DNA of 64,000 bases. Origin: Amaricoccus solimangrovi (lineage in GTDB: Bacteria; Pseudomonadota; Alphaproteobacteria; Rhodobacterales; Rhodobacteraceae). The notes below the pieces were generated by a model. That model searched no databases and was not told where the DNA came from. It saw only the letters and a list, made by a program, of their open reading frames with translations. The DNA lies in NCBI RefSeq assembly GCF_006385685.1, contig NZ_VFRP01000003.1, forward strand, positions 62,001 to 126,000, in the 5' to 3' direction. Below, piece after piece: positions 1,434 through 19,227 of the stretch; position 1 is the first letter of the stretch; the number at the start of each line of letters is the position of its first letter. The position numbers were made by a program, and so were the translations under genes.

Positions 1434-1458
1434 GGAACCGGCCCCGGCTAGGGGCGTT
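1434..1458 (+). promoter_or_regulatory. EcfG (general stress) promoter of glgX
   Basis: GGAAC at 1434-1438, 16-base spacer, CGTT at 1455-1458: the exact core of the alphaproteobacterial EcfG promoter. Expected transcription start is near 1466, giving a leader of about 34 bases before the glgX ATG. A second GGAACC at 1418-1423 has no matching -10. Confidence 0.8.
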
Positions 1459-1499
1459 GCACCCCCGCCATTCACCAAACAGCGAGGCGCGCCAATCCG

Positions 1500-3584
<2,085 letters not shown>

Positions 3585-3625
3585 TCCGGGAACCCGCGGG
3601 CCGCCTCGCGCGTAGCAGGATGACC

Positions 3626-4087: not shown

Positions 4088-4747
4088 CGCGGCGGCGATA
4101 TAATCGGGAACCGATACGGACGCCGCTCGTTGTCACCATATGGCGGCTGGGTGCCGCCCCTGGAATCGATGGACCGGCGCGCCCGCGCACATGCGGGCAA
4201 CCGAGGCGCTTCCCTCCCCATGCGCCGCGCCGGCCTCCATCCCCGAAGTCTGTCCCAACTGGGGCGCCGGTTGGCGCCCCATTTTTTCGTTCCGGCTTCA
4301 GAGCGTGGGAATTGACGTTCAAAACGCTTTGACACCCGTTCGGGCTCGGGCAAGGATCGCTCCGAGGGAATTTTCGGATTCAGGCATCGGTTTCGCGGCG
4401 CCGGGCATGGCGCTGCTCAAGGCATGACAGGGGAAAGACAATGGGCGGAGATGGCCCGTGCCGCCGCGATGGCGAAGGGCGGCCGCGCGGCGCGCTTCGC
4501 TCCGAACACGAGGGGGATGTGATCCGGCCCACGGGCAGGCTCGGGCGTCATGCGCCGATCATCGACCTGAACAACTTCCCCGTGTTTCCGGCGCTCGCAA
4601 TCGGCCCGCGGGCCGCGCACCCGCGGGCAGGCGCCCTCACACCTCCCCCGCGTTTGACTTGCCCCCATCCTCAACTTTGGCAAGAGTGAGCGCGCCTTCG
4701 GATCTACCCCCGCAGTATCCTCGAGTTTCCAGATCGGGCGCGGCGAC
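4088..4747 (+). other. 660-bp region without a convincing gene; possible small RNA
   Basis: Several frames are open here only because the DNA is GC-rich. One frame (ATG 4441, stop 4687-4689, 82 codons) has AGGGGAAAG upstream but encodes a Pro/Arg-rich sequence with no recognisable domain. A strong intrinsic terminator lies at 4261-4287 with no gene ending in front of it, and CTTCCCTCCCC (4209-4219) just upstream resembles anti-Shine-Dalgarno loops of small RNAs. A TTGACG/TTTGACA-rich stretch at 4313-4336 may be part of a promoter for what follows. No EcfG promoter is visible. Confidence 0.4.
4261..4287 (+). terminator. intrinsic terminator in gene-free DNA
   Basis: GGGGCGCC (4261-4268), loop GGTT, GGCGCCCC (4273-4280), then ATTTTTT. 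The perfect 8-bp GC stem followed by six T reads on the plus strand only. It lies 174 bases beyond the mgtC-family stop, so it ends either a long 3' UTR or a small RNA. Confidence 0.8.
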
Positions 4748-6412
4748 ATGAAACGCTTGCTTCCTCTCCTCGCCCTGATCCTGATCGCGACATCAGGTCT
4801 CGTCGCGGCGGCGCTGGTGCTGCGGCTCGACCATCGCAACCGGGAACTCGGCTTCGCGGCGGTGGCCGAGCAGGCCTCGACCCGGCTGCGGGAACAGGCC
4901 GGGCAGCATCTCCTGCTGCTCGCCGCGACGGCCGCGCATTTCGAGGCCGCGCGCGGCTGGATCACGGCGGAGGACTTCCGCGCCTTCTTCGAGCATCTCG
5001 ACCTGCCCGAGCGCGCGCCGGGCAGCGTCGGGCTCGGCTATCTGGTCTTCGCCGACCGCGCCCAGTTGCCGGAACTCGGCGACGCCTATGCGCGCAACAG
5101 CGGCCGGCCGCTGAACCTCTGGCCCGACACGAAGGCGGAGCGCCTGGCCGTGGCGGTGCTGTTCGAAGCGGTGGCGGGCGAGAGCGCGCGGGCGAGCGGC
5201 TATGACAGCTATTCCGATCCGCCGCGCCGGGAGGCGATCGACCGCGCCACCGCGAGCGGGCTGCCGAGCGCGACCGGCCCGCTCGAACCCGTCACCGGAC
5301 CGGGCAAGGGACCGCTCTCGATCGTCGTCTACCTTCCGGTCTATGCCTCGCTCTTCGGGATCAGGCCGGGCGAGGGGTCGCCGCCGCGGCCGGCCGGCTT
5401 CGTCGCGGCGGTCTTTCGCGCCAACGCCTTCATCAAGGCCGCCTTCGCCCCGGGCGCGCTGCCCGCCAACATCGTCGTCGCGGACGCGGAGATGCCCGAC
5501 CTGCCGCTCGCCGAGATCGGCGCGCCGGCGGACCCGCGTTTCGGCGGCCAGCTCGTTGTCCGCGACAGGCTCGACGTCGGAGGACGGACCTGGCTCGTGA
5601 CATCCCGGCCGAGCACCGAGTTCCACCCCCGCAGCGCGGCGCCCTTCGCCCTCGCGCTCGGGGTGCTCTCGCTCCTGCTCGGCTGCGCGGTCGCGGCGAC
5701 GCTGCGCGAACAGGCGCGCGCCCACGCGGCCACCGCGGCGCTCGCCGAGACGAGCCAGCGCAACCTCGAAGAAAAGGATCTGATGCTTCAGGAGATGAAG
5801 CACCGGATCAAGAACGCCATCGGCCGCATCCTCGCGATCGCCCGGCAGACGGCGGCGAACGCCTCCGATCTCGACGGTTTCATCCAGTCCTTCACGCAGC
5901 GTCTGCAGGCGATGTCGAACGCCCAGGACATGCTGACCCGCTCCCGCTACCAGCGCGCGGATCTCGGCGAACTGCTGCGGCGCGAACTCGCCCAGGTGTT
6001 CGGCGCGGATTTCGAGGACGGGCGGCTGAGCGGCCCCGCGGTCGAACTCGACGAGCGCGGCGCGCAGGCGCTCGGCCTGACGTTCCACGAACTTGCGACC
6101 AACACGCTCAAATACGCGGGCTGCGATCCCGACATCGACGTCTCCTGGCACGTAGCACCCCGGATCGGCCACGGGGAGGAGCTGGTCCTGCGCTGGTGCG
6201 AAAGCGCCACGGCGCCGATCGCGCCGCCCGCGCGGAGCGGCTTCGGCACCCGGCTCATCGACGCGAACATCCGCCACGAGCTCGGGGGCGCGATCGAGCG
6301 GGACTATGCCGCGGACGGGCTTCGCGTTACCCTGTCGATCCCGCTTCGCGGCGGCGTGATCGACGGCCGGCGGCCGCGGAACCATCGCCGGGACGGCACG
6401 TTAGCCGACTGA
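4748..6412 (+). CDS. membrane sensor histidine kinase, CHASE domain plus HWE/HisKA_2 kinase
   Basis: 554 residues. A transmembrane segment at about 4-26, a periplasmic CHASE-type sensor at about 40-280 (LGYLVFADR, VVYLPVY, GFVAAVFRA), and a second transmembrane segment at about 296-318. The cytoplasmic part has LQEMKHRIKNAIGRILAIARQT with phospho-acceptor His352, then an HWE/HisKA_2 ATPase: N-box LTFHELATNTLKYAG, WCE motif LRWCES, and G-box GFGTRLID. HWE and HisKA_2 kinases commonly phosphorylate PhyR in the alphaproteobacterial stress response, and phyR is 1.3 kb away, so it is a likely input kinase. The ligand is unknown. No EcfG-type promoter precedes it. Confidence 0.88.
   Translation: MKRLLPLLALILIATSGLVAAALVLRLDHRNRELGFAAVAEQASTRLREQAGQHLLLLAATAAHFEAARGWITAEDFRAFFEHLDLPERAPGSVGLGYLVFADRAQLPELGDAYARNSGRPLNLWPDTKAERLAVAVLFEAVAGESARASGYDSYSDPPRREAIDRATASGLPSATGPLEPVTGPGKGPLSIVVYLPVYASLFGIRPGEGSPPRPAGFVAAVFRANAFIKAAFAPGALPANIVVADAEMPDLPLAEIGAPADPRFGGQLVVRDRLDVGGRTWLVTSRPSTEFHPRSAAPFALALGVLSLLLGCAVAATLREQARAHAATAALAETSQRNLEEKDLMLQEMKHRIKNAIGRILAIARQTAANASDLDGFIQSFTQRLQAMSNAQDMLTRSRYQRADLGELLRRELAQVFGADFEDGRLSGPAVELDERGAQALGLTFHELATNTLKYAGCDPDIDVSWHVAPRIGHGEELVLRWCESATAPIAPPARSGFGTRLIDANIRHELGGAIERDYAADGLRVTLSIPLRGGVIDGRRPRNHRRDGTLAD
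6378..6402 (+). promoter_or_regulatory. EcfG promoter inside the 3' end of the kinase gene
   Basis: GGAAC 6378-6382, 16-base spacer, CGTT 6399-6402. It lies within the last codons of the upstream kinase and points at the gene starting at 6469, with a leader of about 58 bases. Confidence 0.8.
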
Positions 6413-6468
6413 CGACCGAAGCCGGGCCCCGCCGAGCGGCGGCCGCTCGCCCATGACAGGAGTCTCGC

Positions 6469-6810
6469 ATGGCCAGCACGATCCGCGAAAAGACCCGCGC
6501 CGCTCTCTCCGATCTTCCGGATCTCGAGGAGATCCGAGACGAGATCGCCCTCTTGCGGCGGCAAATGGACAAGATGTCGAGCCGGGCGCTCGTCGACGGG
6601 TCGCGCCAGGCGCGGCGTCTGAGGGACCGGACGGCGGCGCGGGCGGATGACCTTTACGCCGACGCGGAGGCGCTGCTCGGCGAACTCGGCCGCGAGTTCC
6701 GTCTCGTCGAACGCCGGGCACGGACGACGGTGCGCGATCATCCCGCCCAGTCCGCCGCGGTGGCGCTCGTCGGCGTGGGGCTTCTGCTCGCGCTGCTCTG
6801 GCGGCGCTGA
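6469..6810 (+). CDS. DUF883-like small membrane-anchored protein (first of two)
   Basis: 113 residues: a long charged helix (IRDEIALLRRQMDKMSS, ARADDLYADAEALLGELGREFRLVERRARTTVRDHP) followed by a single C-terminal transmembrane helix (AVALVGVGLLLALLWRR). This is the ElaB/YqjD/DUF883 layout, in which the C-terminal helix anchors the protein in the inner membrane; the E. coli relatives bind ribosomes in stationary phase. The ribosome site AGGAG precedes ATG 6469. An exact EcfG promoter drives it. A similar but shorter protein at 9764 lies on the other side of phyR. The exact family is inferred from architecture and the DHPAQS/AxxxxxGxLL ending. Confidence 0.75.
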   Translation: MASTIREKTRAALSDLPDLEEIRDEIALLRRQMDKMSSRALVDGSRQARRLRDRTAARADDLYADAEALLGELGREFRLVERRARTTVRDHPAQSAAVALVGVGLLLALLWRR

Positions 6811-6815
6811 GTTGC

Positions 6816-6861
6816 GCGGCGAGGCGCCCGCGGAGGCTTTCGCCCGCGGGCGCCTCGCCGC
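6816..6861. terminator. bidirectional hairpin terminator between convergent genes
   Basis: A 17-bp perfect stem (6816-6832 with 6845-6861) around a 12-base loop, lying between the stop of the DUF883-like gene and the end of ecfG on the opposite strand. There is no long T-run on either side, so termination may be partial. Confidence 0.6.
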
Positions 6862-6866
6862 TCGTT

Positions 6867-7421
6867 CTATTCCGCGAAGGCGCGGGAAACGGTGCCGGCG
6901 GTGACCCGGTCCGGACCGAAATCGCCGGGGCCGGAGATCCGCAGGATGTCCTGCAGCCGGCTCCGCGCCCGGCTGACGCGGCTCTTGATCGTGCCGACCG
7001 CGCAACCGCAGATGTTCGCCGCCTCCTCGTAGGAGAAACCCGAGGCGCCGACGAGCAGCAGGGCCTCGCGCTGGTCGTCCGGCAGGCTCGCGAGGGCGCG
7101 GCGGAAATCGGCCATGTCCATCACGCCGTCATGCTCGGGCGCGACGCTCAGCCGCGCGGTGAAGGTACCCTCGGTGTCCTGCACCTCGCGTCCGCGCTTG
7201 CGCATCTGGCTGTAGTAGGTGTTGCGCAGGATCGTGACGAGCCAGGCCTGCATGTTGGTGCCGAGCTTGAAGTCGCTCTGCTTCGCCCAGGCCTTCATCA
7301 CGGCTTCCTGCACCAGATCGTCGGCGCGGTCGGCCCGTCCGCTCAGCGAGAGCGCGAAGGCGCGCAACGACGGCAGCGCGGCCAGCATGGCCTGCTTGAA
7401 CGTCGGGATCTCACTTGTCAT
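6867..7421 (-). CDS. ecfG: general stress response ECF sigma factor (ECF15 / EcfG)
   Basis: 184 residues. Region sigma2 at about 12-80 (LSGRADRADDLVQEAVMKAWAKQSDFKLGTNM and WLVTILRNTYYSQMRKRGRE) and sigma4 at about 110-165 (LPDDQREALLLVGASGFSYEEAANICGCAVGTIKSRVSRARSRL). These sequences are typical of EcfG. It directs transcription from GGAAC-N16/17-CGTT promoters. It is held inactive by NepR and freed when phosphorylated PhyR binds NepR. Its start overlaps the end of nepR by 11 bases, so the two are translationally coupled. phyR is divergent from this pair, the classical arrangement. Confidence 0.95.
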   Translation of the reverse strand: MTSEIPTFKQAMLAALPSLRAFALSLSGRADRADDLVQEAVMKAWAKQSDFKLGTNMQAWLVTILRNTYYSQMRKRGREVQDTEGTFTARLSVAPEHDGVMDMADFRRALASLPDDQREALLLVGASGFSYEEAANICGCAVGTIKSRVSRARSRLQDILRISGPGDFGPDRVTAGTVSRAFAE

Positions 7422-7593
7422 GCGCCGCCCTCTTTGCCTCGGCTTCGTCGAGACGTTCGAGAAGATCGATCAGTTCGGCGGGGATCGGCTCCTGCTCGAC
7501 CTCGGCGTACAACGCCCGAAGCCTCGCGGCGATCTCGCCGTGTGCGTCCAGCAGCCCTCCGACAGGGCCCCGGTGTCGGGGGGATTTGGTCAT
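7411..7593 (-). CDS. nepR: anti-sigma factor NepR
   Basis: 60 residues. The conserved NepR core is present: IAARLRALYAEVEQEPIPAELIDLLERLDEA, i.e. helix-1 IxxxLRxxY and helix-2 PxPxxxxxLLxxL. NepR binds EcfG under calm conditions and is titrated by phosphorylated PhyR. It is first in the nepR-ecfG operon, and its end overlaps ecfG. The upstream control region is shared with phyR. A second NepR-like gene is present at 10069-10242. Confidence 0.93.
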   Translation of the reverse strand: MTKSPRHRGPVGGLLDAHGEIAARLRALYAEVEQEPIPAELIDLLERLDEAEAKRAAHDK

Positions 7594-7642
7594 TCCGTAT
7601 ACTCTTGAATGGTTCGCGCTCTCGTAGGATGCTCAGACCGTC

Positions 7643-7667
7643 AATTCCGGCCTCGGCGGAAGGTTCC
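7643..7667 (-). promoter_or_regulatory. EcfG-like promoter of nepR-ecfG (degenerate -10)
   Basis: On the minus strand: GGAAC (7667-7663), 16-base spacer, AATT (7646-7643). The -35 is exact; the -10 keeps only the final TT of CGTT. It lies 10 bases from the divergent phyR -35, so the two polymerase sites overlap. Autoregulation of ecfG through such a site is usual in the order. Confidence 0.5.
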
Positions 7668-7676
7668 GCCGGGCCG

Positions 7677-7701
7677 GGAACTTTTCGCACCCGGCGGCGT
7701 T
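7677..7701 (+). promoter_or_regulatory. EcfG promoter of phyR
   Basis: GGAAC 7677-7681, 16-base spacer, CGTT 7698-7701; exact core. The phyR ATG follows 35 bases later with AGGAG in front. Confidence 0.85.
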
Positions 7702-7736
7702 TTCGCCACATTTGGGTCGTCGATCAGGAGCCACAG

Positions 7737-8531
7737 ATGAGCCTTTCTACCCGCATCGCCCCACACCTTGCCTACCTGCGGCGATACTCCCGGGCCATCA
7801 CCGGTTCCCAGACGTCCGGAGACGCCTATGTGGCGGCCATGCTCCAGGCGCTGATCGCCGACGTCAACATCTTCCCGAAGGCGAGCAGCGACCGCATCGG
7901 GATCTACAAGCTCTTCGCGAGCCTCTATTCGAGCCTCCAGGTCAATATCGACGCCAGTTCCTCGCCCTTCGCCTGGGAGCAGCGCGCGGCCGGCAACCTC
8001 GCCTTCGTCTCCCCCCTCGCCCGCCAGGCCTTCCTCCTGAGCGCCGTCGAGGGTTTTGACGATCGCGAGGTGGCGGAGATCCTCGGCCTCGAGGAGGACG
8101 AGACGCGCGCGTTGATGGCGAAGGCGGCCGAGGAGATCTCGCGGCAGGTCGCGACCTCGATCCTCATCATCGAGGACGAACCGCTGATCGCGATGGATAT
8201 CGAGCAGATGGTCCATTCCCTCGGCCACCGCGTGACCGGCGTCGCCCGCACCCACAGCGAGGCGCTCGCGCTCTACCGCGCGGATCCGCCGGGCATGGTG
8301 CTCGCCGACATCCGGCTGGCCGATGGCAGCTCGGGGATCGACGCGGTGAACGACATCCTGCGCAACCGCGTGCTGCCGGTCATCTTCATCACCGCCTTCC
8401 CGGAACATCTGCTGACGGGCGAGCGGCCCGAGCCGGCCTTCCTCGTCACGAAGCCCTTCGACGAGAACATGGTCAAGGCGCTGATCGGGCAGGCCCTTTT
8501 CTTCAACGAAGCGGCGAGCGCGGCGGCATGA
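7737..8531 (+). CDS. phyR: anti-anti-sigma response regulator PhyR
   Basis: 264 residues. The N-terminal sigma-like domain (about 1-135) mimics EcfG: IAPHLAYLRRYSRAITGSQTSGDAYV and LARQAFLLSAVEGFDDREVAEILGLEEDE. The receiver domain follows (about 140-260) with acidic pocket IEDEPLIAMD, phospho-acceptor Asp191 in VLADIRLAD, switch threonine in FITAF and lysine in LVTKPF. When phosphorylated, the sigma-like part is exposed and captures NepR, freeing EcfG. I start at ATG 7737 because AGGAG is correctly placed and the sequence aligns from MSLSTRIAPHL. It is divergent from nepR-ecfG and followed by an HWE kinase gene on the same strand. Confidence 0.95.
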   Translation: MSLSTRIAPHLAYLRRYSRAITGSQTSGDAYVAAMLQALIADVNIFPKASSDRIGIYKLFASLYSSLQVNIDASSSPFAWEQRAAGNLAFVSPLARQAFLLSAVEGFDDREVAEILGLEEDETRALMAKAAEEISRQVATSILIIEDEPLIAMDIEQMVHSLGHRVTGVARTHSEALALYRADPPGMVLADIRLADGSSGIDAVNDILRNRVLPVIFITAFPEHLLTGERPEPAFLVTKPFDENMVKALIGQALFFNEAASAAA

Positions 8532-8544
8532 GCCGGCTTCCCGC

Positions 8545-8569
8545 GGAACCGGGGGGGCGGACGGCGGTT
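8545..8569 (+). promoter_or_regulatory. EcfG-like promoter of the second kinase
   Basis: GGAAC 8545-8549, 16-base spacer, GGTT 8566-8569 (one base from CGTT). It lies just after the phyR stop, so the kinase can be transcribed with phyR or on its own. Confidence 0.6.
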
Positions 8570-8628
8570 TGGGCCGAGGACTGACAAGGGACATTCGCGA
8601 GGTCGCCTGGCCGCGCGACGATGGCGGT

Positions 8629-9657
8629 ATGCGTGGCATGGATCCGCCGAACCGAACGGGCGGCGCGCCGATGACACGGGAGATCTCCGTCGATCGTATC
8701 AAGACCCTGCTCCGGGGCCTCCGGAACAGCGGGCTCTGCATAATGTATCACGACGCCGAACTCGCCGTGCGCATGGTGGAGAATCCGCCGCCCGGCTGGC
8801 CGCCTTCCGAAGTCATCCTCGCGGAGGGGGACGCGGCGATCTTCGAGCCGGAGACCTTCGCGCGCGTGATGGAGACCAAGCGGCAGGTGCTGTCGAGCGG
8901 CGCCCCGGCGCGGCTCGAGGTGGCGCGGCGGGAGGCGCTGCGCGAAAAGGCCTGGTACGAACTCCATATCGAAGCGGACCCCCTGCCTCCGGCGGAGGGC
9001 GAGGAGCATGACGGCGCCCGCGGGCTCTTCGTCTCGGCGATCGACATCACCGAACTGAAGAACCGCGAGGAGGCGCTGCGCTCGCTGCTCTTCGAGGTGA
9101 ATCATCGCTCGCGCAACCTGCTCGCGATCATGCAGAGCGTGCTCGGCCATACCGCGCGCAATTCGGCCTCGGTGGCCGAGTTCGAACGAAAGTTCCGCGG
9201 CCGGGTCGCGGCGCTCGCCCACAGCCAGGATCTGATCACCCGCTCGAACTGGCAGGGAATCCGGTTCCACCGGCTGGCGCTGAACCAGGTCTCGGAACAT
9301 GTCGGACCCGGCGCCGCGCCGCCGCTCATGCTCGGAACCGACCCGCTGATCGGACCCAATACCGCGCTTCATCTCGGCCTCGCGCTGCACGAACTCGCGG
9401 TGAACTCCGCCACCTTCGGCGTACTCGCCCGCGGGCGGGGCGAGATCGTGATCCGGACCGACACCACGCGCGAGGGCCAGATGATGTGCTGGGAGGAACG
9501 GCTGGAGGTTCCGCGCGAATCCGCGCCCGGCGCGGGCTTCGGCCAGGCGATCCTGCGCCAGATCGTGCCGCGCGCGCTGAACGGGAGTGTCGAACTCGAG
9601 ATCGAACCGGACCGGATCCATTACCGGATCGACTGGCCGGAAGCCGTGATCGTGTAG
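8629..9657 (+). CDS. soluble PAS-like HWE-family histidine kinase
   Basis: About 342 residues with no membrane segment. An N-terminal PAS-like domain (LRNSGLCIMYHDAELAVRMVENPPPGWPP ... GLFVSAIDITELKNREEAL) leads into an HWE kinase core. That core has FEVNHRSRNLLAIMQSVLGHTARNS with phospho-acceptor His (residue 159 from this start), N-box LALHELAVNSATFG, CWEER as the W-x-E motif, and GFGQAILRQIVPRALNGSVEL. It is encoded directly after phyR, making it the most likely dedicated PhyR kinase. The start is uncertain: 8629, 8638 and 8671 are all in-frame ATGs. An upstream GTG-like extension to 8569 would overlap the probable promoter and is rejected. Confidence 0.88.
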   Translation: MRGMDPPNRTGGAPMTREISVDRIKTLLRGLRNSGLCIMYHDAELAVRMVENPPPGWPPSEVILAEGDAAIFEPETFARVMETKRQVLSSGAPARLEVARREALREKAWYELHIEADPLPPAEGEEHDGARGLFVSAIDITELKNREEALRSLLFEVNHRSRNLLAIMQSVLGHTARNSASVAEFERKFRGRVAALAHSQDLITRSNWQGIRFHRLALNQVSEHVGPGAAPPLMLGTDPLIGPNTALHLGLALHELAVNSATFGVLARGRGEIVIRTDTTREGQMMCWEERLEVPRESAPGAGFGQAILRQIVPRALNGSVELEIEPDRIHYRIDWPEAVIV

Positions 9658-9669
9658 CGTCTGGCGGAT

Positions 9670-9694
9670 GGAACCCGCGGCCATGCGCGGCATT
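9670..9694 (+). promoter_or_regulatory. EcfG-like promoter of the gene at 9764
   Basis: GGAAC 9670-9674, 16-base spacer, CATT 9691-9694 (one base from CGTT). It starts 13 bases after the kinase stop. Confidence 0.55.
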
Positions 9695-9763
9695 TAACGG
9701 AGAGCGTACCCGAGGGCGAAACCGGGAGAGATTCCGCCGCCCGCGAGCCAGGAGACGAAACGG

Positions 9764-10024
9764 ATGGAGACGACCAACACCATGGCCAAGGTCGAAGCGG
9801 AAAGCCACGCCTCTCAGCTCAGGTCGGATCTGCGGACGCTGCGCGAGGATATCGAGATGCTGAAATCCGATGTCGCCGCGGTCGGCAGAAACCAGGTGAA
9901 CCGCGCCAAGGCGAATATCGCTGATATGGATGGCAATCTGGGGAGCCGATTGAGCGAGAAGCCGTTCCAGACCCTGGCCATCACCTTCGCCGCCGGCTAT
10001 CTCTTCGCGGTGATCACCCGCTGA
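9764..10024 (+). CDS. DUF883-like small membrane-anchored protein (second of two)
   Basis: 86 residues: an amphipathic helix (QLRSDLRTLREDIEMLKSDVAAVG) followed by a C-terminal hydrophobic helix (PFQTLAITFAAGYLFAVITR). The layout matches the protein at 6469 although sequence identity looks low. AGGAG precedes ATG 9764; an internal ATG at 9782 is less likely. It is expected at the inner membrane with the charged helix in the cytoplasm. It lies between the PAS-type kinase and a convergent nepR-like gene, and an EcfG-like promoter precedes it. Confidence 0.75.
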   Translation: METTNTMAKVEAESHASQLRSDLRTLREDIEMLKSDVAAVGRNQVNRAKANIADMDGNLGSRLSEKPFQTLAITFAAGYLFAVITR

Positions 10025-10030
10025 GGCACG

Positions 10031-10064
10031 CGGGCGAGGCACGCCGTGCCGGGCGCCTCGCCCG
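10031..10064. terminator. hairpin between convergent genes
   Basis: CGGGCGAGGC (10031-10040) pairs with GCCTCGCCCG (10055-10064), a perfect 10-bp stem. It lies between the DUF883-like gene (plus) and the nepR-like gene (minus). No T-run follows on either strand. Confidence 0.5.
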
Positions 10065-10068
10065 AAAC

Positions 10069-10242
10069 TCAGGCCAGCCGCTCCACCCGTTCCAGCCGGG
10101 TGAGCAGTTCGACGAACTCCGGGGGCAACGGAGCCTCGGGAGAAGCCGCGTGATAACGCCGCAGACGCGCCCCGATCCGGGCCGCGGCGGCCTGACTTTC
10201 CTTGCGATCCAGTCGCGCTTCATGATCCTTGCTCTCGGACAT
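10069..10242 (-). CDS. second NepR-like anti-sigma factor (paralogue)
   Basis: 57 residues. The C-terminal half, AARIGARLRRYHAASPEAPLPPEFVELLTRLERVE, fits the NepR pattern IGxxLRxxY...PxPxxFxxLLxxLE, as does the genuine NepR at 7411-7593. The N-terminal third is short, charged and unlike NepR. The start is fixed by an exact AGGAGG (10258-10253) ten bases before ATG. It stands alone, not next to a sigma-factor gene. It could bind EcfG, tune PhyR, or bind another ECF15 sigma factor encoded elsewhere. The family call rests on the short core motif only. Confidence 0.72.
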   Translation of the reverse strand: MSESKDHEARLDRKESQAAAARIGARLRRYHAASPEAPLPPEFVELLTRLERVERLA

Positions 10243-10266
10243 CTCACGTCCACCTCCTGAAAAGAA

Positions 10267-10292
10267 AATGCGCGACGCCGAGCGGAGGTTCC
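10267..10292 (-). promoter_or_regulatory. EcfG-like promoter of the second nepR-like gene
   Basis: Minus strand: GGAAC (10292-10288), 17-base spacer, CATT (10270-10267). The -10 matches three of four bases. It ends nine bases before the ribosome site. Confidence 0.5.
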
Positions 10293-10407
10293 CCGCTCCG
10301 CCGCCGGAGCCGCGCCGCTGTCGCCGGAAAGACACAGGCGGCGCGAGGAATGAAGAAGGGCGCGCGGTGGGTCCGCGCGCCCGCCCCCTAGTCGCTCGTA
10401 CCCGTCC

Positions 10408-10908
10408 TCAGGTGAAGGCGAGTTCCCGGTGCACGCCGACGTCGGGCGTGGTGTTCTCCTGCATGTTCGCCTTCGCGGTTTCCCAGAAGAAGGCGAGCGA
10501 GCTTCCGGTCGAGGCCCAGATCCCCGCCGATTTCAGGTCGAGCGCCAGCATCTTGAGCTGCGGATCGTCCTTGCCCTCGAACCAGGCGGAGACGGCCGGG
10601 CCCCAGATCTCATCGAGGCGTTCGCGGTCGAAGCGTTCGCTGATCTCGCCGTCGAGGCAGGCGTGGAAGTCCTGCGACTTCGAGACCAGCACGAAATGCG
10701 CCGCCGCCCCGCTCCGCAGCCGCTCGTAGAGTTCGGTATCGCGCCGGGTCAGGAACCAGAGGCGCCGGTTGTCGGGATCGGGAAAATGCGCCATCGGCTG
10801 CATGTGCCGCGGTCCGCCCTCCACGCCCAGCATGCCCGCGTGGGCTGCCTTGAGATTGTCCCAGAGAAGATCCTCGGGATGTTCGCGCGCGGCTTTCAGA
10901 TCGGACAT
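10408..10908 (-). CDS. pyridoxamine 5'-phosphate oxidase-like general stress protein
   Basis: 166 residues. It resembles the general stress protein 26 group of the PNPOx-like split-barrel fold: MLGVEGGPRHMQPMAHFPDPDNRRLWFLTRRDTELYERL, then HFVLVSKSQDFHACLDGEISERFDRERLDEIWGPAVSAWF and a TGSSLAFFWETAKANM ending. Members bind flavin nucleotides; the physiological reaction is unknown. Start at ATG 10908 with AGGAG (CAGGAGACC) in front. An EcfG-like promoter precedes it, which fits stress induction. Confidence 0.85.
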   Translation of the reverse strand: MSDLKAAREHPEDLLWDNLKAAHAGMLGVEGGPRHMQPMAHFPDPDNRRLWFLTRRDTELYERLRSGAAAHFVLVSKSQDFHACLDGEISERFDRERLDEIWGPAVSAWFEGKDDPQLKMLALDLKSAGIWASTGSSLAFFWETAKANMQENTTPDVGVHRELAFT

Positions 10909-10939
10909 GATCGGTCTCCTGCTTGTTTCATCGCAGACC

Positions 10940-10964
10940 AACCAATCCCCGGGCGAGGGGTTCC
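10940..10964 (-). promoter_or_regulatory. EcfG-like promoter of the general stress protein gene
   Basis: Minus strand: GGAAC (10964-10960), 16-base spacer, GGTT (10943-10940). It lies 32 bases before the ATG. Confidence 0.6.
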
Positions 10965-10970
10965 CTCGCC

Positions 10971-11783
10971 TCAGGCGGCCTTCGGCGCGACGCTGAACCG
11001 GGTGTTCCACGGGTCGCGCAATCCCTCGCCGCCCGCCTGCGCCGCGAGCCTCTCGTATTCCGCATCCTCGGCGCGCAGCGCCACCTCGGCGAGGCCGGTC
11101 GCGGGATAGTCGCGCGGCCCGGCGTGGCGGCTGTTCCAGACATTCGTCGCCAGGTGGTGGTGATAGCCTCCGGTGGCGAAGAAGCTCGCGCCCGGATAGC
11201 GCGTCACGAGCGACATGCCGAGAGGGCCGGTATAGAAAACCTCCGCCTCGGGGATCGCGCCGACCTGGAGATGGACGTGGCCGACGACCGTGCCCGCGGG
11301 CGCCCCGGTCCAGCGGCCGGTCGCCGCGCGGCGCAGATCCGCGATGTCGAGCGGCTCCGTCGTCATCCCGATCCCGCCCGCGCCCCGCGGCCAGGCTTCC
11401 CTGGGGCGGTCGACGTAGATCTCGATCCCGTTGCCCTCCGGGTCGCTCAGGTAGAGCGCCTCGCTCACCGCGTGATCCGAGGCGCCCTGAAGGCGCGCCC
11501 CGCGCTCGGCGTAGGCGTCGAGCAGCGCGCCGAGATCGGCGCGGTCCGGCAGCAGGAAGGCGGTGTGAAACAGTCCCGCCTCGCGCGGGGAGCGGAACCG
11601 GGCCGCGGCGTCGCGGCGCAACTCGACGAGCATCCTTCCCCCGGCGCCGAGACGCGCGGTCTCGCTATCGGAGCCGAGCAGATCGAGCCCGACGCTCCGC
11701 TGATAGAAGCCGGAGAGCTTGCCGAGGTCATGGACGGTCAGGGCGACATGTCCAATCTCGATCGGCGCATCACTGGTAGCCAT
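10971..11783 (-). CDS. VOC-family (glyoxalase/extradiol dioxygenase-like) protein
   Basis: 270 residues with two vicinal-oxygen-chelate modules. The first begins IEIGHVALTVHDLGKLSGFYQRSVGLDLL with the metal-ligand His, and continues LFHTAFLLPDRADLGALLDAY and SDPEGNGIEIYVDRP with the ligand Glu. The second is TVVGHVHLQVGAIPEAEVFYTGPLGMSLV and GGYHHHLATNVW. The layout matches bacterial catechol-2,3-dioxygenase-like CatE proteins; the substrate is not deducible. ATG 11783 has AAAGG upstream. A divergent or nearby LysR gene follows on the same strand. Confidence 0.85.
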   Translation of the reverse strand: MATSDAPIEIGHVALTVHDLGKLSGFYQRSVGLDLLGSDSETARLGAGGRMLVELRRDAAARFRSPREAGLFHTAFLLPDRADLGALLDAYAERGARLQGASDHAVSEALYLSDPEGNGIEIYVDRPREAWPRGAGGIGMTTEPLDIADLRRAATGRWTGAPAGTVVGHVHLQVGAIPEAEVFYTGPLGMSLVTRYPGASFFATGGYHHHLATNVWNSRHAGPRDYPATGLAEVALRAEDAEYERLAAQAGGEGLRDPWNTRFSVAPKAA

Positions 11784-11941
11784 GATCGTTTGCCTTTCGC
11801 AAGAACCCCGCCCCATCGAGGGGAGAGGCCGCGGCGCGCCTCCGGGCGCCCGCCTTGGCGTCGATATGCCCCCCGCGGCGCCCGGGGATTAGCCGGAGGG
11901 ATCGAAGGAGATCCTTTCCCGACCGGACAGAATGCCCGCGC

Positions 11942-12853
11942 TCACCAGCCCGCGTCCCATGCCGGTTCGCCGCGGAAGGCCAGGGCGAGGTGATCCACCA
12001 GCACCCGCACCTTGGAGGCGAGGTGGCGCGCGGGCGGATAGAGCGCCATCACCGCGAGCGGTTCCGGCTCGTAGGCGTCGAGAAGGATCCGCAGCCGGCC
12101 GGCGCGCAGGCTCTCGCCCACGAGGAAGCTCGGGCCGCGCAGCGCGCCCAGCCCCGCCTCGGCCGCGGCCACGCAGGCGCTCGCATCCGAGAAGCGGACC
12201 CGGCCCGCGACGGGCACGACGATCTCGCCGCCGCCCGGATCGCGATAGCGCCAGGAATTGGGCTCCCGCGGCTGGGTATCGATGACGCAGGGCAGATCGC
12301 GCAGGTCGCCCGGCGCTCCGATCGGGCCATGGCGTGCGATGAAATCGGGCGCGGCGGCGGTGACGATGCGCATGGCGCAAAGCCGGCGGGCGATCAGCGC
12401 GCTGTCGACGGGCGCGCCGACGCGGACCGCGAGGTCGAACCCCTCGTCCACGAGGCTCACATGGCGGTCGCTAAACCGGGCGTCGAGCTCGATCCCCGGC
12501 CAGGCCCGGGCGAAGTCGAGCAGGACCGGCACGAGTTCGCGCGCGCCGAAGCTCACCGGGACCGAGAGGCGAATCCGCCCGGCCGGCGTCCCCGCCGCCT
12601 CGTGCACCGAGGCCGAAAGCGCGTCGTATTCCTCGATCAGCGCCTTGACGCGCGCGTGATAGGCGAGGCCCTGCTCGGTCGGGGCCAGCGCGCGGGTGGT
12701 CCGCTTCAGCAGCTGCGCCCCGAGCAGCGTCTCGAGCCGGGAAACCAGTTTCGACGCCTGGCTCGCCGATGTGCCGAGCCGGGCCGCGGCGGCGGAAAAG
12801 CTGCCGAGGTCGAGCACAGCGACGAACATCCGGTCACATTCCAGCCGATCCAT
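11942..12853 (-). CDS. LysR-family transcriptional regulator
   Basis: 303 residues. The N-terminal winged helix-turn-helix at about 1-60 (FVAVLDLGSFSAAAARLGTSASQASKLVSRLETLLGAQLLKRTTRALAPTEQG) is typical LysR. The C-terminal half is the periplasmic-binding-like effector domain (GRIRLSVPVSFGARELVPVLLDF). The sequence resembles the CrgA/DsdC-like subgroup that often controls a nearby oxidoreductase gene. It is transcribed away from the transglutaminase gene at 12986; the 132-bp gap is the natural place for an operator, but no clear T-N11-A palindrome stands out. Confidence 0.93.
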   Translation of the reverse strand: MDRLECDRMFVAVLDLGSFSAAAARLGTSASQASKLVSRLETLLGAQLLKRTTRALAPTEQGLAYHARVKALIEEYDALSASVHEAAGTPAGRIRLSVPVSFGARELVPVLLDFARAWPGIELDARFSDRHVSLVDEGFDLAVRVGAPVDSALIARRLCAMRIVTAAAPDFIARHGPIGAPGDLRDLPCVIDTQPREPNSWRYRDPGGGEIVVPVAGRVRFSDASACVAAAEAGLGALRGPSFLVGESLRAGRLRILLDAYEPEPLAVMALYPPARHLASKVRVLVDHLALAFRGEPAWDAGW

Positions 12854-12985
12854 GCGCCCTCGCCCTCCGGAGAGCGAGGCTGGCCCGGCGCGAGGGCCGC
12901 GTCAACGGGCCGCGCGCGCCTTCGAATGCCGCTGGCCTCGCACCCCGCGCCTCGCTAACGTCGGTGAGTCGCCCGGCTCCGCAAG

Positions 12986-13876
12986 ATGTCCATATTCAAC
13001 GTTCGCCACGTCACCACCTACAGATACCGAAGGCCGGTGGTATTCGGCGACCACCGGCTGCTGTTCCGCCCGCGCGACAGCCACGACCAGATGCTGCTCC
13101 ATGCGGAACTCGTCACCGATCCCGCGCCGGCGCGGCTGCGCTGGATCCACGATGTCTTCGGCAATTGCGTCGCGATCGTCTCCTTCGAGGGTCCGGCCCG
13201 GGAACTGCGGTTCGAAAGCCGGATCCGGCTCGACCACACGCCGAGGGGCGAGCTTGCCTTCGACACCGATCCGGCGGCGCTGCGCTACCCCTTCTCCTAC
13301 GCGGCGGAGGAGGCGGGCGATCTCGCCAGCACGATGCGGCCGCATTATCCCGACGATCGCGTGACCCGCTGGGCCCGGCAGTTCGTGCGCGCCGACGGCA
13401 GGACGGAGACCGGCCATCTCCTGATGACGATGTGCTACGCGATCCACGAGGGCTTCGCCTATGCGCGGCGGCACGAGCATGGCACGCAGTCGCCGGCGCG
13501 CACGCTCGCCCTGCGCCGGGGCACCTGCCGGGATTTCGCGCTCCTGATGATGGAATGCCTCCGCGCGCTCGGCTTCGCGGCGCGTTTCGTCTCCGGCTAC
13601 GTCTACGTCCCCGACCGCGACGACGGCGCGGTCCGGGGCGGCGGCTCCACTCACGCCTGGTGCGAGGTCTATCTGCCCGGCGCGGGCTGGGTGGAATTCG
13701 ACCCGACCAACGGCATCGTGGGCAGCCGCGACCTCATCCGCGTCGCCGTGGCGCGCGATCCCTCCCAGGCGATCCCGCTCTCGGGCACCTATACCGGCGC
13801 GGCGGAGGATTTTCTCGAGATGGAGGTCGGCGTGCAGGTAACGACGGAACCAGGCGCGCTCCAACCGATTGAATGA
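12986..13876 (+). CDS. transglutaminase-like cysteine protease-fold protein
   Basis: 296 residues. An N-terminal bacterial transglutaminase-associated region (FNVRHVTTYRYRRPVVFGDHRLLFRPRDSHDQ) leads to the transglutaminase core. Catalytic residues are visible: Cys181 in RRGTCRDFA, His223 in STHAWCEV, Asp239 in EFDPTNG. Such cytoplasmic proteins may be peptidases or amidases; substrates are mostly unknown. No Shine-Dalgarno is obvious before ATG 12986, so the start is the best guess from homology (MSIFNVRHVTTYRY). Confidence 0.9.
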   Translation: MSIFNVRHVTTYRYRRPVVFGDHRLLFRPRDSHDQMLLHAELVTDPAPARLRWIHDVFGNCVAIVSFEGPARELRFESRIRLDHTPRGELAFDTDPAALRYPFSYAAEEAGDLASTMRPHYPDDRVTRWARQFVRADGRTETGHLLMTMCYAIHEGFAYARRHEHGTQSPARTLALRRGTCRDFALLMMECLRALGFAARFVSGYVYVPDRDDGAVRGGGSTHAWCEVYLPGAGWVEFDPTNGIVGSRDLIRVAVARDPSQAIPLSGTYTGAAEDFLEMEVGVQVTTEPGALQPIE

Positions 13877-13963
13877 ACACCGGGGACCGGCGCCGACGCG
13901 CTGTTTACTTTTGCGCGCAAGCTGTCAGCTTTGGAAAACCGCGATCTTGAGCGAGAGAGGACA

Positions 13964-14251
13964 ATGGCGAGCGACAAGGAAGAACGGATCAGGGCCAAGG
14001 CCCACGACATCTGGCTGAGCGAGGGATGCCCGGAAGGCTCCGAGGCCCGGCACTGGGAGATGGCGACCGCCGCGGTCGAGGCCGAGGACGCGGGCGCCGC
14101 GCCGGACGTCGCCGAGACCGCCCCGGAGCCGGAGACCGCGCCGGCCCCGAAGAAGCGCGCGCCCCGCGCGAAGAAGACCCCGGCCGATCCCGATGCCCCC
14201 GCCGCCCCGAAGCGGGCGCCGCGGACGAGAAAGACGACGCCGGCGGGCTGA
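13964..14251 (+). CDS. DUF2934-type protein with basic Pro/Ala/Lys tail
   Basis: 95 residues. The N-terminus ERIRAKAHDIWLSEGCPEGSEARHWEMATA fits DUF2934 (RIRxxAYxIWxxxGxPxGxxxxHW). The remaining half is a low-complexity EPETAPAPKKRAPRAKKTPA tail, histone-H1-like, suggesting nucleic-acid contact. ATG 13964 follows a good GAGAGGA site. It is a single gene between the transglutaminase and another small gene that has an exact EcfG promoter. DUF2934 genes commonly occur near stress genes, but I see no clear EcfG site here. Confidence 0.85.
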   Translation: MASDKEERIRAKAHDIWLSEGCPEGSEARHWEMATAAVEAEDAGAAPDVAETAPEPETAPAPKKRAPRAKKTPADPDAPAAPKRAPRTRKTTPAG

Positions 14252-14288
14252 TCCGCCAAGGGCGGCTTCAGGCGCGGCCGACGGCGGC

Positions 14289-14314
14289 GGAACCGATCGT
14301 GGCGTGCCCGCGTT
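14289..14314 (+). promoter_or_regulatory. EcfG promoter of the small gene at 14350
   Basis: GGAAC 14289-14293, 17-base spacer, CGTT 14311-14314: exact core with the longer permitted spacing. ATG 14350 is 35 bases downstream. Confidence 0.78.
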
Positions 14315-14349
14315 CCACGGAGATGTGAAACTGTCGCACGGGATGTGCC

Positions 14350-14598
14350 ATGCAATCCAATGTCCGGAGCCGCGGCTTCACCGATCCGCTGGAAGTCGTC
14401 GATCATACCGACATGCCCTATGAGGAGCGGCTCGGCATCCTGCAGGAATGGCGCGCCCGGCTCGTGAGCGAATCCGCGCCCTCCCCCGACATCGAGGAGA
14501 TCGACGGGGCGATCCAGGCGCTCGAAACCGGCGCGCGTCTGCAGGGCGACCAGTCCGACGAAGTGCCGGAGGATTACGACACCCGCCGCGGTCGCTGA
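14350..14598 (+). CDS. small orphan protein, likely stress-induced
   Basis: 82 residues, acidic and hydrophilic: YEERLGILQEWRARLVSESAPSPDIEEIDGAIQALETGARL is probably helical, followed by a disordered acidic tail. There is no membrane segment or signal peptide. I do not recognise a named family. The ribosome site is weak. The main argument that it is a real gene is an exact EcfG promoter in front and an intrinsic terminator immediately behind, making it a complete single-gene transcription unit. Confidence 0.72.
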   Translation: MQSNVRSRGFTDPLEVVDHTDMPYEERLGILQEWRARLVSESAPSPDIEEIDGAIQALETGARLQGDQSDEVPEDYDTRRGR

Positions 14599-14625
14599 GC
14601 CCGCTCCCGCCACCGTGCCCCGTCG

Positions 14626-14659
14626 AAGGGTCGCGCCGGAAGGCGCGACCCTTCCTTTT
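14626..14659 (+). terminator. intrinsic terminator after the small orphan gene
   Basis: AAGGGTCGCGCC (14626-14637), loop GGAA, GGCGCGACCCTT (14642-14653), then CCTTTT. Perfect 12-bp stem. Confidence 0.85.
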
Positions 14660-14799
14660 CGCGCGTTTTCCGATAGGGTCCGTGGCGACGCGTCGCATTC
14701 CGCCGCGCCGAAAGGACTTGCGGTCGCCAGCGGAGTGCGATTTATGAAACCGAACAGTTTCGCTTTGTGACCAGTCTTCGCGCCAGGAGAGCCCGACGC

Positions 14800-15966
14800 A
14801 TGTCCTTCCGCCTGAAATCCTTCCTCGCCGGGGCGCTCGGCCTCGTGGTGGCGGTGGCGGCGCCGGCGGGCGCGCAGCAACAGGCGCGCGGGCCGGTGCC
14901 CGTGACCGTGGTCACCGTCCAGGCCTCCGACGTGGCGCTGACGAGTCTCCTGCCCGGCCGCGTCGTCGCATCGAGCGTCGCGCAGGTCCGGCCCCAGGTC
15001 GACGGCATCATCAAGGAGCGTCTCTTCACCGAGGGCACCCCGGTCGAACTCGGCGATCCGCTCTACAAGATCGACGACGCCTCCTATCGCGCGCAGGTGG
15101 CCCAGGCCGAGGCGCAGGTGGCCCAGGCCGAGGCCCAGCTTCGCACCGCGCAGCAGGACGCGGATCGCAACGAGGAACTGCTGCAGCGGAACACGATCAG
15201 CCAGCAAACCCGGGACGAGAGCCTGGCGACGCGCGACGCGGCCAACGCGGCGCTGGAACTTGCGAAGGCGCAGCTCATGGCCGCCAACATCAATCTCGAC
15301 CGCACGACGATCCGCGCCCCGCTCTCCGGCGTGATCGGCCTCTCCCTCACCACGCAGGGCGCGCTCGTCTCCGCCGGCCAGAGCGACGCGCTGACGGTGA
15401 TCCGCACGCTCGATCCGGTGAATGTCGACGTGACGCAGTCGGCGGCGGAGATCCTGCGCTGGCGCCGCGGCCAGCGGCCCGGCTCCGGTCCCGACCCGGA
15501 CCCGATGGTCTCGCTCACGCTCGCGGACGGCTCGAAATACGGCCACACCGGCCACCTCTCGGCCGCCGAGCCCTATGTGAACGAGAGCACCGGCGTCGTC
15601 GTGCTGCGCATGCAGTTCGACAATCCCGAGGGGCTGCTGCTGCCGGGCATGTACGTCCAGGTGGAGATCCCGCTCGGCACGGCGGCGGGCGCGATCCTGA
15701 CGCCGCAGGAAGGGGTGAGCCGGGACAGCCGCGGCCAGCCGCTCGCCTATGTGGTGGGCGAGAACGACGTGATCGAGACCCGGCAGCTGACCATCGAGGG
15801 CGCCCAAGGCAACCAGTGGATCGTCACCGCGGGGCTCGAACCCGGCGACCGCGTCGTGGTCGAAGGCGTCCAGAAGATCGCGAACGGCGCCACGGTGACG
15901 CCGGAGGAACGCGCGGCCGCGCCCGCTGATACCGACGCGGCCGACGCCACCCCGGCAAAGCCCTGA
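14800..15966 (+). CDS. RND efflux membrane-fusion (periplasmic adaptor) protein
   Basis: 388 residues. An N-terminal signal sequence (FRLKSFLAGALGLVVAVAAPAGAQQ), a barrel-sandwich lipoyl half (ARPGRVVASSVAQVRPQVDGIIKERLFTEG with YKIDDASYRAQVAQAEAQ), a coiled-coil hairpin, and a second lipoyl half ending TIRAPLSGVIGLS. The beta-barrel and membrane-proximal domains follow. It bridges the inner-membrane pump encoded at 16089 to an outer-membrane channel; no tolC-like gene is adjacent. I use ATG 14800 (AGGAG in front) rather than GTG 14767, which has none. A 21-bp repeat encodes part of the coiled coil. Confidence 0.93.
   Translation: MSFRLKSFLAGALGLVVAVAAPAGAQQQARGPVPVTVVTVQASDVALTSLLPGRVVASSVAQVRPQVDGIIKERLFTEGTPVELGDPLYKIDDASYRAQVAQAEAQVAQAEAQLRTAQQDADRNEELLQRNTISQQTRDESLATRDAANAALELAKAQLMAANINLDRTTIRAPLSGVIGLSLTTQGALVSAGQSDALTVIRTLDPVNVDVTQSAAEILRWRRGQRPGSGPDPDPMVSLTLADGSKYGHTGHLSAAEPYVNESTGVVVLRMQFDNPEGLLLPGMYVQVEIPLGTAAGAILTPQEGVSRDSRGQPLAYVVGENDVIETRQLTIEGAQGNQWIVTAGLEPGDRVVVEGVQKIANGATVTPEERAAAPADTDAADATPAKP
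15091..15132 (+). repeat. 21-bp tandem duplication in the adaptor coiled coil
   Basis: Two head-to-tail copies of a 21-base unit (15091-15111 and 15112-15132) encode AQVAQAE twice. It extends the hairpin by one heptad. Confidence 0.85.
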
Positions 15967-16088
15967 GCGCGTCCGCGGGGATCCCGAGAGACCCCGCGCC
16001 GCTCCCTCCCGTGAAACAGCAATCCGGGGCTTCCCGGTTTCCGCCCGCCCGGGCGCGATCCGTCCCCGACCCGATCCCGGAGTAGCCG

Positions 16089-19000
16089 ATGGCCCGCTTC
16101 TTCATCGACAGACCGATCTTCGCCTGGGTGATCGCGATCATCATCATGGGCGCCGGCATCCTGTCGATCATGACCCTGCCGGTCTCGCAGTACCCGACGA
16201 TCGCCCCGCCCTCGGTCCGGATCAACGCGACCTATCCCGGCGCCTCGGCCGAGACCGTGACCAATACCGTCACCCAGATCATCGAACAGCAGATGACCGG
16301 GATCGACGGGCTGAGATACATGAGTTCGAGCTCGACCTCCCAGGGCCGGGTGACGATCACGCTCACCTTCGAGACCGGGACCGATCCCGACATCGCCCAG
16401 GTGCAGGTGCAGAACAAGGTCAGCCAGGCGACCGCGCTCCTGCCCGACGAGGTGCAGCGGCAGGGCGTGACGGTGCAGAAGGCCGCGCAGGGCTTCCTGA
16501 TGGTGGTGGGCCTCACCTCGCAGAGCGGCTCGGTCGACCAGGCGGATCTCGCCGACTATCTCGTCTCCAACATGGTGGACGAGTTCAGCCGCGTGCCCGG
16601 CGTCGGCAACGTCCAGGTCTTCGGCTCGCAATATGCGATGCGGATCTGGCTCGATCCCTCGAAGCTCGCCGCCTACGATCTCGCGCCCTCGGACGTGATC
16701 AACGCGGTCTCCGCGCAGAACCAGCAGATCTCCGCCGGCTCCTTCGGCTCGCTGCCCGCGCCCGACGGCCAGCAGCTCAACGCGACGGTGAAGGCGCAGT
16801 CGCTCCTCTCCACGCCCCGGGATTTCGAGCAGATCGTGGTCCGGGCCGAGACCGACGGCGGCCTCGTCCTCGTGAAGGACGTGGCCCGCGTCGAGATCGG
16901 CGCGCAGAGCTACGACACGATCTCGCGCTTCAACAAGTGGCCGGCGAGCGGCATGGCGATCCAGCTCGCCTCCGGCGCCAACGCGCTCGACACCGCCGAC
17001 CTCGTGAAGGAGCGGCTCGAGGCGATGAAGCCGTTCTTCCCCGACGGCGTGGACTACGTGATCCCCTACGACACGACGCCCTTCATCTCGATCTCGATCG
17101 AGGCGGTGGTGCATACGCTGATCGAGGCGATCGTGCTCGTCTTCCTGGTGATGCTCCTGTTCCTGCAGAGCATCCGCGCGACGCTGATCCCGACGCTCGC
17201 GGTCCCCGTGGTGCTGCTCGGCACCTTCGGGATCATGGCCGCCTTCGGCTTCTCGATCAACACGCTGACGATGCTCGCCATGGTGCTCGCGATCGGCCTG
17301 CTCGTCGACGACGCGATCGTCGTGGTCGAGAATGTCGAGCGCATCATGGAGCAGGAGGGGCTCGGCCCGCTCGAGGCGACGCGCAAGTCGATGGACCAGA
17401 TCACCGGCGCGCTGATCGGCATCGCGCTCGTGCTCTCGGCGGTCTTCGTGCCGATGGCCTTCTTCGGCGGCTCTACCGGCGTCATCTACCGCCAGTTCTC
17501 GGTCACCATCGTCTCCGCCATGGCACTGTCGGTGCTCGTGGCACTCACCCTCACCCCGGCGCTCTGCGCCACGATCCTGAAGCCGAAGGCGCATGACCAT
17601 CGGCCGCTGGCGCCGTTCCGCTGGTGGAACAGCTTCTTCGAATGGGTGACGCGCCGGTATTCGCGGACCAACCGCTGGACCGTGGCCCGGCCGTTCCGGA
17701 TCATGCTCGTCTACCTGCTGCTCGTCGGCGCGATGGGCTATCTCTACGTGAAGACGCCGACCGCCTTCCTGCCCGACGAGGACCAGGGCATCCTGCTGAC
17801 GCTGATCCAGGGCCCCTCCGGCGCCACCGCCGGGCGCACGGACAATGTCGTCAGCCAGGTGCAGGACTATTTCCTCGAGAAGGAGGCGGCGAACGTCTCC
17901 TCGGTCTTCGGCGTGACGGGCTTCTCCTTCGGCGGATCCGGGCAGAACATGGGCCTCGCCTTCGTGAAGCTGAAGGACTGGGAGGAGCGGCCCGATCCCG
18001 GCCAGTCGGCGCAGGCGATCGCCGGCCGCGCCTTCGGCGCCCTGAGCCAGATCCGCGACGCGATGGTCTTCCCGGTCGTACCGCCGGCGGTGACCGAGCT
18101 CGGCAACGTCAGCGGCTTCAACTTCTTCCTGCAGGCGCGGAGCGGCCAGACCCACGAGCAGCTCCTCACCGCGCGCAACCAGCTGATGGGCCTCCTGTCG
18201 CAGAGCCCGCTCATCCAGTCGATCCGCCCGAACGGGCTCGAGGACGCGGCGCAGTACCAGCTCGACATCGACTGGCGCAAGGCGGGCGCGGTCGGGGTGA
18301 CGGCGGCGGATGTCGGCGCCTTCCTCTCGACCGCCTGGGCCGGCACCTATGTGAACGACTTCGTCGACCGCGGCCGGATCAAGCGCGTCTACATCCAGGG
18401 CGAGCCCTGGGCGCGGGCGATCCCGGAGGACATCAACCGCTGGCGCATCCCGAACCAGTCGGGCGATCTCGTGCCCTTCTCGAACTTCACCACCAGCGAC
18501 TGGACCTCGGGGCCGCAGGGCGTCAACCGCTACAACGCCCTCGCCGCGATGGAACTGCAGGGCACGCCGGCGGATGGCGTCTCGACCGGCGAGGCGATGG
18601 CGGAGGTCGAACGCTTGGCCGGACAGCTGCCGCCGGGCTACAACATCGCCTGGACCGGCCTGTCGCTCGAGGAGCGGGAATCGGGCGATCAGGCGCCGAT
18701 GCTGTACGCGCTCTCGATCGCGGCGGTCTTCCTCTGCCTCGCGGCGCTCTACGAGAGCTGGTCGATCCCCTTCGCGGTCATCCTCGCGCTGCCGGTCGGC
18801 ATCCTCGGCGCGCTCATCGGCGCGCGGCTCGGCGGATCGGCGAACGGCGTCTATTTCCAGGTCGGCCTGCTGACGGTCGTCGGGCTTACCGGCAAGAACG
18901 CGATCATGATCGTCGAATTCGCCCGCGAACAGGTGGAGGCCGGCGCCCGGGTCTTCGACGCGGTGATCCACGCGGCCCGGACCCGGTTCAGGCCGATCCT

Positions 19001-19220: not shown

Positions 19221-19227
19221 CACCGCT

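Follow-up and report, generated by a model that had tools for sequence, protein, structure and literature searches.

The closest described counterparts of the gene reported here are NepR paralogues of Sphingomonas melonis and M. extorquens. In S. melonis Fr1, NepR2 (#1448) is EcfG-regulated and has been proposed to be a PhyR antagonist and a negative feedback regulator of the general stress response (GSR): the output of a GSR reporter went up in the knockout and down on overexpression, and PhyR was co-precipitated, while no complex with EcfG was seen, the two-hybrid proteins being unstable, which the authors took as a hint that there is none (PMC6599016). In M. extorquens AM1, MexAM1_META2p0735 co-precipitated PhyR, no interaction with a sigma factor was found, the promoter was stress-induced and GSR-dependent, and overexpression sensitised the cells, for which negative feedback was proposed; META1p2700, one of three paralogues in this organism, has a putative EcfG promoter and showed no PhyR binding, and, in the excerpts of the paper used here, none of the paralogues gave a two-hybrid signal with any EcfG (PMC4814048). 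Among the titles and abstracts surveyed, we found no report of a NepR paralogue in the family of the bacterium studied here, nor of the histidine form described below.

We analysed a 64,000-nucleotide stretch of the Amaricoccus solimangrovi genome (the window), which holds a GSR locus and, within it, a stand-alone NepR paralogue that we call nepR2. Its features are the following.

4748-6412, forward strand: CHASE-HWE kinase (domain matches)
6867..7421, reverse strand: ecfG, general stress response sigma factor (profile matches)
7411..7593, reverse strand: nepR1, canonical NepR, overlapping ecfG (PF18557, 48.7 bits)
7643..7667, reverse strand: weak EcfG promoter-like site GGAAC-N16-AATT before nepR1-ecfG (pattern search)
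7677..7701, forward strand: EcfG promoter-like site GGAAC-N16-CGTT of phyR (pattern search)
7737..8531, forward strand: phyR, the sole PhyR in the genome at E<=1e-25 (PhyR models of Pfam and NCBIfam)
8629..9657, forward strand: HWE histidine kinase, candidate PhyR kinase, start codon uncertain (PF07536, E 3e-19)
9670..9694, forward strand: EcfG promoter-like site GGAAC-N16-CATT before the DUF883-like gene (pattern search)
9764..10024, forward strand: DUF883-like small protein, convergent with nepR2 (PF05957, 22.7 bits against a cut-off of 25.4)
10069..10242, reverse strand: nepR2, putative stand-alone NepR paralogue, 57 residues, histidine at the conserved aromatic of helix 1 (PF18557 match and own-genome match)
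10253..10258, reverse strand: ribosome-binding site AGGAGG of nepR2 (sequence)
10267..10292, reverse strand: EcfG-type promoter-like site GGAAC-N17-CATT of nepR2 (pattern search)
10408..10908, reverse strand: Pyrid_ox_like gene, upstream neighbour of nepR2 (PF16242, E 1e-33)
10940..10964, reverse strand: EcfG promoter-like site GGAAC-N16-GGTT of the Pyrid_ox_like gene (pattern search)

About 2.5 kb separate nepR2 from nepR1, with phyR and a kinase gene between them, and no EcfG or PhyR match was found in the 3.1 kb around nepR2. The original prediction, a second NepR-like gene at 10069 to 10292 that is separate from ecfG, lies 2.5 kb from the canonical nepR and carries its own EcfG-like promoter, agrees with this arrangement, the interval spanning both the gene and its promoter-like site. 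The kinase next to phyR also has a weak PAS match, below the cut-off, and there are two DUF883-like genes in the locus, both under the Pfam cut-offs. We take the Pyrid_ox_like gene to be of the general stress protein 26 type. Elsewhere in the genome, contig 93 encodes a second EcfG-like sigma factor (L203 9669-10355) that is 41% identical; no NepR was found in the surrounding 20 kb.

Like S. melonis NepR2, nepR2 is a second NepR-like gene in a GSR neighbourhood; the S. melonis protein, however, has phenylalanine at the helix-1 aromatic and its gene adjoins ecfG, whereas the product of nepR2 has histidine and its gene lies 2.5 kb from nepR1, and a function has been shown for the former while we infer one for the latter. 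With META2p0735 it shares being a NepR paralogue with an EcfG-type promoter, a putative one in the window. Rubellimicrobium thermophilum, a red Rhodobacterales-type bacterium, has paralogous GSR parts as well. There, two PhyRs, two EcfGs and a single NepR are described in the portion of the report used here (PMC12148442), in contrast to the one PhyR and two NepRs of the window's genome. Two NepRs per genome, RsiA1 and RsiA2, are also found in Sinorhizobium meliloti (as far as the excerpts of PMC8103513 go), where, unlike at nepR2, the rsiA1 gene lies beside genes for a PhyR and a sigma factor and the tyrosine is kept.

From its sequence, nepR2 looks like a real gene. Its open reading frame has 57 codons starting with an ATG at 10242, and the product matches the Pfam NepR family (PF18557) with an E-value of 9.4e-6 and 25.6 bits, which is 0.1 bit under the curated cut-off of 25.7; the profile match that the original prediction called for has a low E-value and a score narrowly below the threshold. 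With the NCBIfam model NF051865, it scores 15 bits and nepR1 23.2, both missing the cut-off of 100. A profile search of the whole genome (4.86 Mb in 135 contigs, completeness 100) returned two NepR matches, nepR1 with 48.8 bits and nepR2 with 25.3. The top sequence matches in the PDB are the NepR chains 5uxx, 4qic and 3t0y, all weak (E-values of 0.03, 0.04 and 0.55, respectively). The codon signal is 0.117 bits per codon, compared to 0.141 for nepR1 and 0.55 to 0.67 for the long, clear genes of the locus; of the other five frames over nepR2, four are negative and one, antisense, reaches 0.063. The AlphaFold2 single-sequence model (mean pLDDT 85) places helices at residues 4-33 and 41-56 with a proline-containing loop between them, as in the NepR family, and the helix-2 pattern PxPxxFxxLLxxL is present (APLPPEFVELLTRLE).

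It is in helix 1 that the protein departs from the family. Of the two motifs originally ascribed to it, PxPPxFxxLLxxLE is kept, while IGxxLRxxY is absent: the sequence reads IGARLRRYH, with histidine at the position of the conserved aromatic and a tyrosine one residue before it. By its profile match we therefore class the product as NepR-like, and, with LR kept and the following aromatic replaced by histidine, as set apart from canonical NepRs. Among 178 aligned NepR rows, this column holds tyrosine in 147 and phenylalanine in 28 (together 175) and histidine in 3; the count leaves out about 120 family NepR matches and four weak or broken genus matches. The rows comprise 97 from the genomes of our set, the window's included (102 taken, five dropped: two with coordinates cut by a contig end, two weak non-NepR matches and one partial match with tyrosine), and 81 from 80 loci on named contigs (82 matches minus a six-residue fragment). 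The LRxxY/F aromatic is a frequent feature of these rows, outside any published definition, and the Pfam profile spans the position. The other two histidine rows are stand-alone NepRs from the same genus (IGSVLRTLH in G001 and IGQALRSLH in G008), whereas S. meliloti RsiA1 and the other plasmid-collection sequences compared (11 sequences, of 15 matching records) all have tyrosine. A profile of the three histidine proteins found matches in 12 of 394 family genomes and, with the best 14 candidates per genome considered, no further histidine variant: the 11 loci beyond the window's genome are six NepR-like proteins, all with tyrosine or phenylalanine, and five that are not NepRs. Going by the L32-R33 numbering and the sequence of chain 2lfw, the histidine column corresponds to S. 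melonis Y36, and alanine at this aromatic (NepR Y36, NepR2 F35) weakens both S. melonis proteins (PMC6599016, in the part drawn on here). The histidine of nepR2 is thus a naturally occurring change at a position where mutation weakens S. melonis NepR. It is the novel, testable point of nepR2, making accessible to experiment how one contact decides between sigma factor and PhyR as the partner; should the histidine prove neutral, the case would be an ordinary one.

The promoter-like site ends 24 bases before the ATG, so that a transcript starting from it would begin close to the ribosome-binding site. Its -10 box is CATT, as opposed to the CGTT consensus, after a spacer of 17 bases. The pattern GGAAC-N16/17-NRTT occurs 18 times in the window against 3.5 expected, a number reached in none of 100 shuffles, and 14 of the 18 sites fall within positions 1-20000; the narrower CRTT pattern has 9 matches against 1.1 expected. 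From the shuffle mean, the chance of an EcfG-type site is about 0.3% per 100 bases of upstream sequence. Several of the GGAAC-type sites in positions 1-20000 directly precede small stress-type genes. Across the ten genus genomes with phyR, the window's included, the phyR side carries GGAAC-N16-CGTT in seven (the window's, G001, G003, G007, G008, G009 and G010), whereas G005 has N17-CGTT there and the boxes of G004 and G006 are different ones. On the nepR side, CATT follows N17 in G003 and G004 and N16 in G006, CGTT is found in G001, G005, G008 and G009, and G007, G010 and the window each have a box that is neither of these. In Sphingopyxis granuli, according to the sections of the paper used here, the -10 box is flexible, with TGTT, CATT and GGTT the commonest after CGTT, promoters with these boxes are transcribed in vitro by EcfG, and changing CGTT to CATT cut the output of one promoter while the reverse change increased that of another (PMC7083833). 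Given the CATT boxes on nepR sides of the same genus and these S. granuli data, the site upstream of nepR2 fits a weak EcfG promoter.

On presence in related genomes, the lack of which the original prediction would have taken as a refutation, the outcome was mixed. A single-sequence search with nepR2 found no relative at E<=1e-3 in the 393 other family genomes, with the best 16 candidates per genome considered, and none in the named genomes or on plasmids; within the genus, the canonical NepRs of three genomes came out below 1e-3. By profile search, a stand-alone NepR relative was found, at a different place, in two of the ten other genus genomes (G001 and G008), that is, in three of 11 with the window's. 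Their features are as follows.

L062 5605-5823, reverse strand, and L064 2602-2829, forward strand: stand-alone NepRs of G001 and G008, beside pyrC, with GGAAC-N17-GGTT upstream and histidine in the aromatic column

The pyrC assignment rests on TIGR00856 (421 bits) in G008 and, for the homologue beside the G001 NepR, on inspection by eye. All three genus stand-alone NepRs have a GGAAC-N17 site upstream, with CATT in the window and GGTT in G001 and G008. An orthologue at the same place as nepR2 was sought by HMM scan in the GSR loci of nine same-genus genomes (L194-L202) and only canonical NepRs were found; for L194, L195 and L199, the locus is an entire contig of 9.9 to 11.6 kb and its neighbourhood is incomplete, and in two of the nine the contig, shorter than 12 kb, stops shortly past the kinase or phyR. 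In the tenth genome (G002, 86% complete), neither PhyR nor NepR was matched. A remnant was also sought in the pyrC flanks of G003, G004, G007, G010 and the window's genome (L290-L295), covered for 1.5 kb or to the contig end, and no NepR-like reading frame was found; the pyrC of G003 is split over two contigs. In trees, the three histidine NepRs lie on long branches among the canonical NepRs of the genus; 20% and 12% of the bootstrap trees recover them as monophyletic, and one clade is not rejected by the AU test (p 0.49).

In the family at large, Pfam NepR matches at E<=0.01 occur in 190 of 394 genomes, and two or more in 26. In two of these the extra match is not a NepR (G080 and G252), in two both matches lie in one reading frame (G167 and G338), in 15 both NepR copies have an EcfG-like or PhyR-like neighbour, and seven (G000, which is the window's, G071, G099, G168, G177, G253 and G310) have a NepR lacking EcfG-like and PhyR-like neighbours in the stretch covered. 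Among the six stand-alone NepRs outside the genus, that of G253 has GGAAC-N17-CGTT upstream, that of G099 a GGAAT version, and four have no fitting site.

We consider it probable, if by no wide measure, that nepR2 encodes an EcfG-induced second NepR that damps the GSR mainly through PhyR, in the manner of S. melonis NepR2 and META2p0735. In such a circuit, the GSR would turn on EcfG, which would drive nepR2 from its weak promoter; NepR2 would then compete with NepR1 for PhyR, which, as there is one PhyR in the genome, would be a single target shared by both; and NepR1, freed from PhyR, would re-bind EcfG, damping the response. The sequence supports the match to the NepR family, the position of the gene by itself, its promoter-like site and its setting in a cluster of stress genes; EcfG-dependent transcription, PhyR binding, the lack of strong inhibition of EcfG and the negative sign we infer. 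Negative feedback is the guess with the most support, having been demonstrated for S. melonis NepR2 and proposed, with data in its favour, for META2p0735; for the same reason the feedback arm envisaged by the original prediction, although plausible, is an idea already published (PMC6599016; PMC4814048). If it holds for nepR2, one more alphaproteobacterial family would have NepR feedback paralogues under EcfG control. Against such a brake stand the score under the Pfam cut-off, the non-consensus -10 box, the lack of an in-place orthologue in the nine genus loci, the absence of a fitting promoter from most family stand-alone NepRs outside the genus and the precedent of META1p2700. Moreover, as the aromatic that matters in S. 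melonis (Y36/F35) is histidine here, binding of PhyR could be weak, as with the alanine substitution.

The product of nepR2 might instead be a second true anti-sigma factor, acting on EcfG or on the contig 93 sigma factor in the manner of RsiA1/RsiA2 and raising the dose of inhibitor during the response, which we regard as not very likely. The intact helix-2 motif and the presence of a second EcfG-like sigma factor without a NepR nearby are compatible with it, as is the precedent of S. meliloti, where both NepRs are cited as binding the sigma factor (in the part of PMC4814048 used here), whereas the M. extorquens paralogues without EcfG two-hybrid signal, the hint of no EcfG complex in S. melonis and the histidine in place of a conserved contact aromatic speak against it.

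A more specific form of the PhyR-directed brake, which we put forward tentatively and think unlikely, is that, in this genus, stand-alone NepRs with EcfG-type promoters make up a subtype whose histidine, in place of the contact aromatic, would retune the interface such that PhyR binding is kept and EcfG binding lost, yielding a dedicated brake; the contact being an imidazole, its action may perhaps depend on pH.

That nepR2 is a decaying or drifting duplicate, which has lost its aromatic contact and retains little activity, we find quite unlikely: the long branch in the trees, the score at the cut-off and the patchy occurrence in three of 11 genus genomes would be expected of such a gene, but the frame, the ribosome site and the promoter site are intact, the codon signal comes close to that of nepR1, and the same histidine recurs in all three genus stand-alone copies, although a single origin would make this one event. 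A chance NepR-like frame in a GC-rich intergenic stretch, for which its shortness, the lack of single-sequence matches in the family (E<=1e-3, 393 genomes, best 16 candidates each) and an antisense frame with half its codon signal could be cited, is highly improbable in view of the E-value, obtained against all of Pfam, the NepR chains at the top of the PDB matches, the place in a GSR cluster, and the ribosome and promoter sites.

Some further observations concern the GSR genes of the family and beyond. The window's EcfG shares 69% identity with those of Ensifer/Sinorhizobium, 57-62% with those of four members of its own genus, 71-80% with those of five others, and about 44-60% with the EcfGs compared from the rest of the family; these mixed identities suggest that the GSR module (window 6867-8531) is of rhizobial type and was exchanged within the genus. 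In G177 and G310 (L226 and L204), the stand-alone NepR lies directly 3' of a gene for a Crp/Fnr-type regulator (cNMP_binding, HTH_Crp_2), without an EcfG-type site, and in G177 a distance of 2.4 kb separates it from the canonical nepR. A NepR of family genome G394 is identical to a Gemmobacter fulvus plasmid NepR over the stretch compared. In G167 and G338, short reading frames near ecfG (L220 1369-1623, forward strand, and L225 1489-1722, reverse strand) carry two NepR stretches each in tandem, with 76 and 59 bits, respectively, to the Pfam family, and may possibly encode a double-headed NepR. A Methylobacterium plasmid encodes a sigma factor with a NepR-like N-terminal part (L305 2426-3115), and NepR-like N-terminal extensions are known for the EcfG proteins of M. 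extorquens (PMC4814048, in the part drawn on here).
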